Positions 53,593 to 55,757 of a DNA stretch of 57,167 bases are shown piece after piece. This DNA is from Actinomycetota bacterium (GTDB lineage: Bacteria; Actinomycetota; Actinomycetes; Nanopelagicales; Nanopelagicaceae). The stretch is taken from the NCBI GenBank assembly GCA_026392825.1, contig JAPLBF010000028.1:1-57167 (forward strand), in the 5' to 3' direction. How positions within the stretch are numbered: the first letter of the stretch is position 1; each line of letters begins with the position of its first letter. The translations under genes were made by a program, and so were the position numbers. The notes under the pieces are model-generated. The model was not told the DNA's origin, did no database searches, and was given only the letters and a program-made list of their open reading frames with translations.

Positions 53593-55032
53593 ATGCGTCG
53601 CGCGAAAATTGTCTGCACAATGGGTCCAGCGGTTGAATCTGCCGAAAAAGTTCGTGAATTAATTGATGCTGGAATGAATATGGCGCGCCTTAATCTCTCC
53701 CACGGTGGCTACCCAGAACATCAAGCCCGCTTAGATCAAGTTCGTCTAGCTTCGAAAGAGGCTGGCGTTCCTGTCGCAATTTTGGTTGACCTGCAAGGCC
53801 CCAAGATTCGCCTAGCGCGCTTCAAGGCAGGCCCACACGATTTGGCGTGTGGAGATATTTTTACAATTACAACAGATGAAATTGAAGGCACCAAAGATCG
53901 CGTTGGTACTACATACAAGGGTTTACCTGGAGACTGCAAAACTGGGGACCGTATTTTGATCGATGATGGAAAAGTCACCATCGAAGTAATTGAAGTTAAA
54001 GGTAATGATGTAATTACCAAAGTAATCGAACCTGGTGCGGTCAGCAACAATAAAGGAATTAACCTGCCTGGTGTTGCAGTTTCTGTACCTGCGCTATCTG
54101 AAAAAGATATGGATGATCTGCGCTGGGGTTTGAAAGCTGGCGCTGATTTCATTGCGCTCTCATTTGTCCGTAGCGCTGATGACATTGTGGACGTACACCG
54201 CATAATGGATGAAGTTGGAATCAGTATTCCGGTAATCGCAAAAATTGAAAAGCCACAGGCCGTTGCAAATTTGCAAGAGATCGTCAATGCCTTTGATGGC
54301 ATTATGGTCGCGCGTGGAGACTTGGGAGTGGAACTTCCAATCGAAGAGGTGCCGCTGGTACAGAAACATTGCATCCAGTTGGCTCGCGAAGCCGCTAAGC
54401 CAGTAATAGTTGCGACCCAGATGCTTGACTCGATGATTACAAATTCACGCCCAACTCGCGCAGAAGCGACAGATTGCGCGAATGCCGTTCTAGATGGTGC
54501 GGATGCGCTGATGTTGTCGGGTGAAACTTCCGTTGGGGCGTTTGCAATTGAAGCTGTCCAAACAATGGCTCGCATAATTACCCATACCGAACAAGGCGGA
54601 ATGGACATGATCCGCCCAATGAAATCAACACCAAAAACAAAAGGTGGTGCGATCACCAAGGCGGCAGCTGAAGTTGGTGCAATTGTGGGCGCTAAATACT
54701 TAGTTACCTTTACTCAATCTGGTGACTCCGCGCGACGTACCGCGCGCTTGCGATCACCTATTCCAATTCTGGCATTTACTCCTGAAGTTGGAACCTACAA
54801 TCGCATGGCCCTTGATTGGGGAGTTGAACCAGAGTTAACGGCGATGGTGAAGCACACCGATGAAATGGTTAAGCAGGTAGATACTTTTCTGCTGCAATCG
54901 AAGCGCTGTAAAGAAGGCGAGTTGGTTGTAATTGTCGCTGGATCGCCTCCAGGAATTCCAGGCTCAACCAATGCAATGCGTGTTCACCGCGTGGGCGATG
55001 CCGTGGGTGGCGCCGCTCCTGCTTACCGTTAA
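53593..55032 (+). CDS. pyk: Pyruvate kinase
   Basis: This 479-residue glycolytic enzyme transfers phosphate from phosphoenolpyruvate to ADP. The sequence opens MRRAKIVCTMGPAVESAEKV; the PEP and metal site is in IPVIAKIEKPQAVANL (about residues 213-228) and ARGDLGVELP, and ATQMLDSMITNSRPTRAE (about 275-292) is the family active-site segment. The C-terminal allosteric domain is present. It follows the gltBD operon after 79 bases and precedes a tRNA gene. Confidence 0.96.
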   Translation: MRRAKIVCTMGPAVESAEKVRELIDAGMNMARLNLSHGGYPEHQARLDQVRLASKEAGVPVAILVDLQGPKIRLARFKAGPHDLACGDIFTITTDEIEGTKDRVGTTYKGLPGDCKTGDRILIDDGKVTIEVIEVKGNDVITKVIEPGAVSNNKGINLPGVAVSVPALSEKDMDDLRWGLKAGADFIALSFVRSADDIVDVHRIMDEVGISIPVIAKIEKPQAVANLQEIVNAFDGIMVARGDLGVELPIEEVPLVQKHCIQLAREAAKPVIVATQMLDSMITNSRPTRAEATDCANAVLDGADALMLSGETSVGAFAIEAVQTMARIITHTEQGGMDMIRPMKSTPKTKGGAITKAAAEVGAIVGAKYLVTFTQSGDSARRTARLRSPIPILAFTPEVGTYNRMALDWGVEPELTAMVKHTDEMVKQVDTFLLQSKRCKEGELVVIVAGSPPGIPGSTNAMRVHRVGDAVGGAAPAYR

Positions 55033-55047
55033 GATTTGGCAATAACG

Positions 55048-55120
55048 GCCTCGGTACTCCAACGGTAGAGAGGGCAGTCTCAAACACTGCATAGTGTCGG
55101 TTCGAATCCGACTCGAGGCA
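55048..55120 (+). tRNA. tRNA-Leu (anticodon CAA) with a short variable loop
   Basis: A complete cloverleaf can be drawn. The acceptor stem is GCCTCGG / TCGAGGC with discriminator A and no encoded CCA. The D arm is CTC / GAG around a ten-base loop. The anticodon stem is GCAGT / ACTGC around CTCAAAC, anticodon CAA at 55081-55083. The T arm is GTCGG / CCGAC with loop TTCGAAT. The loop CTCAAAC, discriminator A and the leucine-like D loop indicate tRNA-Leu reading UUG. The variable region is only ATAGT (55091-55095), whereas bacterial tRNA-Leu normally has a long extra arm. Confidence 0.82.
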
Positions 55121-55148
55121 CATGACTATAAAGACGCGGATGTGAAGC

Positions 55149-55757
55149 GTGGATAACGCAGGAAAGCCTTCATCAACTCGCATACGAATTCTCGTTGCTG
55201 AAGATGAAACGCTGATCCGTATGGATCTAGTTGAGATGTTGGGTGAAGCCGGCTATGACGTTGTAGCCGAAGCAGCTGATGGCGCGCAAGCAATTGAGTT
55301 AGCGCAAATACACAAGCCGGACCTTGCAATACTTGATGTAAAGATGCCAGTACTTGATGGAATATCTGCTGCAGAGAAGATTATTGCGATAGCACCCGTT
55401 TTAATGTTGACCGCGTTTTCACAACGCGAACTTGTTGAACGTGCTCGCGATGCTGGCGTAATGGCATATGTCGTTAAGCCATTTTCAATTGGAGATCTAG
55501 TTCCGGCAATTGAGATTGCCATAAGTAGGCATTTACAGATGCGCTCTCTCGCAGATGAAGTCGCCGATCTGCATGAGCGATTAGAGACTCGCAAAATTAT
55601 TGACAAAGCAAAAGGCATTTTGATGTCTGCTCTTAATTTGAGTGAGCCGCAAGCATTTTCGTGGATTCAAAAGGCGGCCATGGATAGAAGACTTACAATG
55701 AAAGAAGTGGCCATGGCGGTAATCGACCCGAAGCAGGCCGAGCACTTCCCTTCTTAG
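55149..55757 (+). CDS. ANTAR-domain response regulator (PdtaR-like)
   Basis: This 202-residue regulator has a receiver domain (about residues 12-125) with acidic pair Asp19/Glu20 and phospho-acceptor Asp63 in LAILDVKMPVLDG, and a C-terminal ANTAR RNA-binding domain (about 140-195), seen in RKIIDKAKGILMSALNLSEP. ANTAR proteins bind paired hairpins in nascent RNA and prevent termination when phosphorylated. In mycobacteria the orthologue PdtaR is driven by kinase PdtaS, not encoded here. The start is a GTG at 55149, shortly after the tRNA. Confidence 0.9.
   Translation: MDNAGKPSSTRIRILVAEDETLIRMDLVEMLGEAGYDVVAEAADGAQAIELAQIHKPDLAILDVKMPVLDGISAAEKIIAIAPVLMLTAFSQRELVERARDAGVMAYVVKPFSIGDLVPAIEIAISRHLQMRSLADEVADLHERLETRKIIDKAKGILMSALNLSEPQAFSWIQKAAMDRRLTMKEVAMAVIDPKQAEHFPS

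Follow-up and report, generated by a model that had tools for sequence, protein, structure and literature searches.

The window analysed here is a stretch of 57,167 nt which, judging from its sequence, probably belongs to a genome of Candidatus Planktophila (Nanopelagicaceae). A single tRNA gene was found in it by ARAGORN, a tRNA-Leu(CAA) at positions 55048-55121 of the plus strand, and Rfam family RF00005 matched positions 55048-55120 with 54.2 bits, compared to a cut-off of 29. The 73-nt tRNA (55048-55120) is class I-shaped and has no encoded CCA. It is located between pyk, the gene for pyruvate kinase (53593-55032, plus strand; an open reading frame matching NCBIfam NF004886 with 627.9 bits, cut-off 623), and a gene for a response regulator with an ANTAR domain (55149-55757, plus strand; Pfam PF00072 and PF03861), which by synteny marks the orthologous site throughout the phylum. 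In its best segment, the ANTAR neighbour shares 87% identity with Ca. P. lacus MMS-21-148, which has the same tRNA-Leu(CAA). The tRNA begins 15 nt after the pyk stop codon and ends 28 nt before the start of the regulator; the upstream gap leaves scant room for a promoter, so that co-transcription with pyk is likely.

An earlier note, made from the letters of the window, had described an intact cloverleaf, and all of its stems were indeed found (acceptor 7 bp, anticodon 5 bp, T 5 bp), followed by A73 at 55120. The computed minimum-energy fold is also a cloverleaf, with a 3-bp D stem (-24.9 kcal/mol; z -1.95, an equally good fold arising in 8 of 200 shuffled sequences). A GAGAG repeat allows the 3′ strand of the D stem to pair in either of two registers, and the computed fold uses the register other than that of the 10-12/23-25 stem. 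Numbering, the Rfam alignment, and the fold place the D arm at 55057-55072, with the 3-bp stem 10-12/23-25, an unpaired C13.A22 mismatch, A14, A15, G18, G19, and A20a; the D loop that had been called extended is of the leucine type. The anticodon CAA occupies 55081-55083 (ARAGORN), and the variable loop, ATAGT (55091-55095), consists of the five bases pointed out previously and ends in U48, so that the A15-U48 pair is retained. All of the leucine identity signals (A73, A14, A15-U48, G18G19, and A20a) are thus present, and the long variable arm of class II is replaced by a 5-nt loop, which makes the molecule a tRNA-Leu by role and identity bases, and not a class II tRNA. It carries the features of the class I form described below: A9, C12-G23, C13.A22, a 5-nt loop, and a leucine D loop. 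The sequence CACT-GCAT-AGTG (55085-55096), proposed in the note as a competing mini-hairpin resembling a remnant of the arm, can pair on paper; it is judged to be incidental, and the idea of a remnant is unsupported, because, judged by eye, 8 of 16 loci (L236-L251) are unable to pair there, whereas the anticodon stem is kept in all 16.

The tRNA was found in 31 of the 37 genomes of the genus, in 25 at 99-100% identity over the full length, in five at 95-97%, and in one, where the contig breaks off, at 100% over 68 nt; the six genomes without a match are 62-82% complete. The window's own genome gave 35 tRNA hits, among which tRNA-Leu CAA and UAA are short, and GAG and UAG are long. Since this assembly is fragmented (38 contigs, without some tRNAs that are present in closed relatives), two closed genomes of the genus were inventoried. 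They contain 41 and 39 distinct tRNAs, with four leucine tRNAs each, and in both genomes GAG and UAG are long, and CAA and UAA are short. The full tRNA inventories of these two genomes contain no class II UUR tRNA, and a class II tRNA-Leu(CAA), which according to the note could have marked the present copy as decaying, was sought in the window's genome and the two closed genomes without success. All the UUG and UUA readers that turned up here in whole genomes were class I. That the gene is a pseudogene or an assembly error, for which its unusual shape alone speaks, can practically be dismissed, as the tRNA is carried by 31 of 37 genus genomes with intact stems, is the sole UUG reader found in the two closed genomes, and has a form that occurs phylum-wide. 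Two side observations concern closed genome G013. A tRNA-Lys(CTT)-like gene (L154, 368200-368500) is apparently split by an insert of about 75 nt and gives a tRNA match of 18.5 bits, and two further low tRNA hits (L152 and L153; 42.6 and 35.2 bits), named Ala(tgc) and Gly(acc) by ARAGORN, are possibly decayed or mobile.

UUA and UUG account for 111 of the 263 leucine codons (42%) in five window genes. Leucine was found at 201 of 270 aligned positions corresponding to window UUR codons (10 pyk and 15 ANTAR homologues from other families), much like the 252 of 360 positions at CUN codons in the pyk and ANTAR homologues, and at the UUR positions the homologues nearly all use CUC or CUG. As UUR codons fall on conserved leucines and no other reader was found, the short tRNAs must deliver leucine. 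We infer that the window tRNA is very probably a functional tRNA-Leu(CAA), which reads UUG and is leucylated by a single, ordinary leucyl-tRNA synthetase (LeuRS).

LeuRS would recognise A73, A14, the A15-U48 pair, and the D loop with G18G19 and A20a, and the long variable arm would not be needed. A review of identity elements reports that for E. coli tRNA-Leu A73, A15-U48, G18G19, A20a, and contacts between the D and T loops matter, but that the long arm does not, and that minimal tRNAs without this arm remain active (PMC9976931). The note's argument that LeuRS must accept a class I shape if the tRNA works is supported, and that it must work is indicated by the lack of a class II UUG/UUA reader in the two closed genomes and by the conserved leucines at UUR codons; the mitochondrion-like enzyme that it invoked is unneeded, since E. 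coli LeuRS, according to the same review, does without the long arm (PMC9976931). A single LeuRS gene was found in genome G000 and likewise in 20 of 20 others, which included both kinds, so that one enzyme would serve both tRNA shapes. A change in LeuRS was considered as the cause of the altered tRNA and rejected. Among the 15 of 21 LeuRS loci that were read, the LS insertion before the KMSKS motif is missing in G000, G013, G014, G037, G262, G336, and G423, and also in G078, and an insertion is present in G039, G149, G363, G337, G088, and G122, and also in G144. G078 and G144 have two class II UUR hits each; as either state of the insertion is shared with a class II genome, the insertion is not tied to the tRNA form. 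The Planktophila LeuRS (823 aa; locus L171, 1474-3945) is without the T. thermophilus-type insertion at this site.

The short form is set off discretely from the long one: of 165 distinct leucine tRNAs, 87 have a variable region of 5 nt, one of 6 nt (a misparse), and 77 of 11-17 nt. Among 88 class I UUR tRNAs, A73 and A14 are each present in 87, G18G19 in all 88, and A20a in 83. Position 15 is A in 78, and bases 15 and 48 pair as A-U in 77 and as G-C in 10, compared to A-U in 71 of 71 class II UUR tRNAs; the G15-C48 type represents the covariation expected if this pair is under selection. The two forms also differ elsewhere in the core. At position 9, 87 of 88 class I tRNAs have A and 70 of 71 class II UUR tRNAs have G, pair 12-23 is C-G in the former and G-C in the latter, and position 13 is C in 88 of 88 versus G in 65 of 71. 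The class I variable loop is mostly NNAGY, and usually NNAGU. The class I form is therefore a coordinated variant rather than a deletion, and the statement of the note that the tRNA has lost its long variable arm, as if by a single lesion, does not describe it. In Streptomyces, class I tRNA-Leu(CAA) (loci L252-L315) occurs in two subtypes, one with G15-C48 and a loop ending in AGC, and the other with A15-U48, a TTCAAAA anticodon loop, and a longer D loop (GGCAGCAGGC).

In comparisons with other isotypes, for which the non-leucine set was small and mostly from this genus, the nearest neighbour outside the class I leucine group was a class II tRNA-Leu for 90 of 91 class I tRNAs, with mean identities of 0.62 to class II tRNA-Leu and 0.60 to tRNA-Asn. 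When the core alone was compared, tRNA-Cys and tRNA-Asn were closer to class I tRNA-Leu than class II tRNA-Leu was, and this resemblance is what might be cited for another identity, as the note had allowed. Charging of the short tRNA with anything but leucine is nevertheless very improbable: conserved leucines are as frequent at UUR codons as at CUN codons, A73 and the leucine D loop are retained, and the short tRNA substitutes for class II tRNA-Leu one for one.

A sequence pattern for the class I form matched 101 of 396 genomes of the phylum (49 of 246 genera), and its backward control matched two genomes; the pattern requires AGT and misses the G15-C48 type, so that the class I counts are lower bounds. 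ARAGORN named all 30 fetched class I matches tRNA-Leu. The class II UUR pattern, which depends on AGACRC being present in the D arm and overlooks class II genes that deviate from it, matched 306 of 396 genomes. Among the 101 class I-positive genomes, 14 combine class I CAA with class II UAA, 42 combine class I UAA with class II CAA, 20 have both as class I, and 25 have one class I tRNA without a class II hit. All 56 genomes with one tRNA of each form are complementary in anticodon, and both forms for one anticodon were found by the pattern search in none of the 101, a result that is firm only for the inventoried genomes because the pattern is blind to altered class II genes. Two further closed genomes (f4, Mycobacterium-like, and f19, Streptomyces-like; both labels are guesses) illustrate the division. 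In the f4 genome (G363), the tRNA hits of at least 80 nt are Ser, Tyr, and Leu GAG, UAG, and CAG, and CAA and UAA are class I; in the f19 genome (G054), they include Leu GAG (two), UAG, CAG, and UAA, and CAA is class I. The class I-shaped tRNA-Leu(UUR) would thus be interchangeable with the class II form, each anticodon being served by one form.

The two forms alternate at the same chromosomal site. An ANTAR gene was found close to 28 of the 30 loci with class I CAA and to 18 of the 20 with class II CAA (the latter chosen by the authors), but to none of the 33 with class I UAA. Among the best 80 of at least 592 ANTAR relatives, a set dominated by Planktophila relatives and Streptomyces, a tRNA-Leu(CAA) lies within 3 kb of the ANTAR gene in 79 loci, 53 of class I and 26 of class II. 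One orthologous site (pyk-tRNA-ANTAR) therefore holds either tRNA form, the one taking the place of the other. At least 27 changes of form were counted on a phylum tree of 127 loci, 15 of them forced by well-supported branches, compared with a mean of 36.6 for shuffled labels. On a pyk+ANTAR tree of 48 Streptomycetaceae loci, which excludes a metagenome-assembled genome titled Streptomycetaceae with a Planktophila-type tRNA (L240), there were at least 14 changes, 11 of them forced, and a shuffled-label mean of 14.8. Form is thus less scattered than shuffled labels across the phylum, and as scattered as shuffled labels in the Streptomycetaceae.

Alignment of near neighbours of opposite form revealed an open reading frame just 3′ of the tRNA-Leu(CAA). 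It is present at 33 of the 63 loci L252-L315 (19 class I and 14 class II), all Streptomycetaceae by title, and at 38 loci over the entire scan. Two of five of its proteins matched Pfam LAGLIDADG_3 (PF14528) above the cut-off, and three matched below it; helix-turn-helix (HTH) matches were also below the Pfam cut-off. The predicted structure (pLDDT 84.8) gave I-Tsp061I as its best Foldseek hit (E 3.5e-7; TM 0.53 by query length) and also matched I-DmoI in the PDB, and WhiA, a regulator with the same fold, ranked 50th. The product is, on this structural modelling, a LAGLIDADG homing-endonuclease-like protein with two motifs and a predicted LAGLIDADG fold. The motif Asp is kept in 63 of 68 rows for motif 1 and in 60 of 68 for motif 2 (four loci, from genomes G228, G371, G218, and G423, being counted twice), and the rest were unmatched by the script. 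Relatives of the gene were found in 37 of the 396 genomes searched. Among the 30 loci read, which come from 11 families, all 30 have the relative adjoining a tRNA-Leu gene, with ten further matches beyond these; 15 of the 30 are the f19 CAA site, and the others lie on either side of CAA (9), UAG (4), or CAG (2) genes. At L369, L370, L372, L377, L380, and L382, in other actinobacterial families, relatives adjoin tRNA-Leu(UAG) or tRNA-Leu(CAG), several of which have altered D loops. A tblastn search with one type A protein (see below) gave no match in PLSDB or INPHARED.

The N-terminal HTH region of the gene occurs in two types, type A at 19 class I and no class II loci, and type B at 15 class II and two class I loci, so that type agrees with tRNA form in 34 of 36 loci, an association that is uncorrected for phylogeny and was scored with probes taken from two of these 36 loci. 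On gene trees of 42 rows, for which only endonuclease proteins of at least 230 aa were retained, tRNA form changes twice on the tree of the N-terminal DNA, three times on that of the middle, and 12 times on that of the C-terminal third (bootstrap 11-13); the latter tree is poorly resolved, and its starred branches force only four changes. As form tracks the proximal part of the gene and not the C-terminus, it seems that the first two thirds of the gene entered resident sites jointly with the tRNA. Where a class II tRNA adjoins the gene, its D loop is odd in 28 of 37 rows, which represent 35 distinct loci because two of the double-counted loci combine class II with a normal D loop, and class II tRNAs without an adjacent gene have such a loop in 3 of 12 cases; seven loci beside the gene have a normal D loop. 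These associations, too, are uncorrected for descent.

The cause of the alternation we infer from these patterns. The best single explanation, which we hold to be about evenly balanced between right and wrong, is that a putative LAGLIDADG homing endonuclease linked to the tRNA-Leu gene cuts the other tRNA allele, the class I shape being one sort of allele that resists cutting. Repair would then transfer the linked, cleavage-resistant tRNA into the cut site, along with the N-terminal portion of the gene for the endonuclease. The position of the gene directly 3′ of the tRNA, its predicted fold with the motif Asp residues largely kept, the placement of its relatives beside tRNA-Leu genes (including the 15 loci outside f19), and the agreement of N-terminal type with tRNA form all favour this explanation. 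The mosaic trees (2, 3, and 12 changes, with 14 on the pyk+ANTAR tree) fit homing with a limited conversion tract, and the altered D loops of adjoining class II tRNAs are what resistant alleles would show. On the other hand, the C-terminal tree forces few changes, the gene is missing from 30 of the 63 loci L252-L315, and none was seen at 33 class I UAA loci, where the flanks in many cases extend only 1.5 kb. The search of 396 genomes also found no such gene in the window's genome, so that it cannot directly explain the present state there; in Planktophila, the endonuclease would have been lost and the short form fixed. The direct claim for the window is the functional short tRNA, and homing concerns the spread of the forms elsewhere.

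A more specific version, held tentatively and with somewhat less than even confidence, is a home-and-rescue process. A LAGLIDADG family dedicated to leucine tRNAs would swap the resident tRNA-Leu for a linked, functional, re-shaped tRNA that it cannot cut, reciprocal class I-linked and class II-linked versions would flip an essential gene back and forth, and the window tRNA would be a fixed relic of this process.

A second possibility, which appears rather unlikely, is that ordinary homologous recombination between strains exchanges the forms without any driver, with pyk and ANTAR as conserved flanks. The flanks are indeed conserved, and both forms occur at sites in which the endonuclease-like gene was not found, for example in Nonomuraea (class II at L296 and L297, class I at L308 and L311). 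Such recombination, however, does not predict that the N-terminal type tracks the tRNA form while the C-terminus does not, nor that relatives of the gene lie beside leucine tRNAs elsewhere.

Selection at the RNA level is an improbable third reading, according to which loss of the arm or a change in the D loop shields the tRNA from tRNA-cutting nucleases or toxins, and phages and hosts would therefore retain both forms. It draws on the frequency of class I-shaped tRNA-Leu in viral contigs and on its occurrence in named phages. This reading leaves the linkage to the endonuclease-like gene unexplained, and it is further weakened in that we know of no leucine variable-arm nuclease in these hosts.

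A class I pattern was found in at least 120 viral stretches, and ARAGORN confirmed 79 of 80 loci as short leucine tRNAs (70 UAA and 9 CAA). The IMG/VR stretches analysed (L383-L462) have GC contents of 32-55%. Viral contigs often carry the class I-shaped tRNA-Leu(UAA), and the short form may therefore have a history in phages.

With class I tRNAs as the sole UUG and UUA readers found, the real requirements of LeuRS become testable in living bacteria. That a needed tRNA gene changes form in place, linked to an endonuclease-like gene whose N-terminal type follows that form, suggests that the decoding apparatus can be reshaped by selfish DNA, and if the homing explanation is true, the site would provide a natural model of a rescue-type gene drive. 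The alternation is also relevant to Streptomyces, whose leucine tRNA gene bldA acts in development.

Among the papers listed by literature searches, judged by their titles and the opening lines of their abstracts, neither a class I tRNA-Leu(UUR) in actinobacteria nor a phylum-wide dimorphism was mentioned, and no leucine-tRNA-linked LAGLIDADG gene or family was described. A review of odd tRNAs, in the part available, treats tRNA-Leu as class II (PMC7609411), and the accessible text of the tRNAscan-SE 2.0 paper discusses a human tRNA-Leu-CAA without the arm (PMC8450103). A long loop is ascribed to M. tuberculosis tRNA-Leu-2, -3, and -5 in PMC11541572, which implies that the remaining tRNA-Leu of this species may be without one. 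A single sentence in the available portion of PMC6582537 mentions a short-loop tRNA-Leu(TAG) in a tRNA cluster of the Mycobacterium mucogenicum/phocaicum group. Like the window tRNA, this is a short-loop leucine tRNA in an actinobacterium, but, as far as that portion describes it, it has another anticodon and is a cluster copy beside a normal gene, whereas the short form of the window is the sole copy found (PMC6582537).

Compared with bacterial class II tRNA-Leu(CAA), the window tRNA shares the anticodon, A73, A14, A15-U48, G18G19, A20a, the 3-bp D stem, and the genomic site, and differs in its variable region (5 nt instead of 11-17 nt), in A9 for G9, in C12-G23 for G12-C23, and in C13 for mostly G13. 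Human mitochondrial tRNA-Leu(UUR) likewise has no long arm and has A73 and A14 identity (PMC9976931), but its transcript has a weak, mismatched anticodon stem, whereas the window tRNA, which is bacterial and chromosomal, is fully paired. Phages carry short tRNA-Leu genes that are annotated simply as tRNA-Leu, as seen in cyanophage P-RSM6, Pseudomonas phage PPSC2, Myxococcus phage Mx1, and Gordonia phage Phendrix. Those of P-RSM6, PPSC2, and Mx1 have the same D arm as most actinobacterial class I tRNAs (TAGCCCAA..GGCAGAGGCAG) and a 5-nt loop; they differ in being phage genes with hosts outside the phylum, and the D arm of the window tRNA is CTCCAACGGTAGAGAG. In Mx1 (L504), the class I-shaped tRNA-Leu(UAA) (301-374) is followed, 13 nt on, by an annotated HNH endonuclease gene (388-665). 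The nearest tRNA-linked homing endonuclease found is SegB of phage T4, which, in the part of PMC2988022 available, is likewise a free-standing homing endonuclease beside tRNA genes and is tied to the inheritance of the tRNA region. SegB is a phage protein of the GIY-YIG type, and its target is listed there as a tRNA intergenic region (PMC2988022), whereas the actinobacterial protein is of the LAGLIDADG type with an HTH, is encoded on the chromosome beside leucine tRNAs, and occurs with both tRNA alleles.
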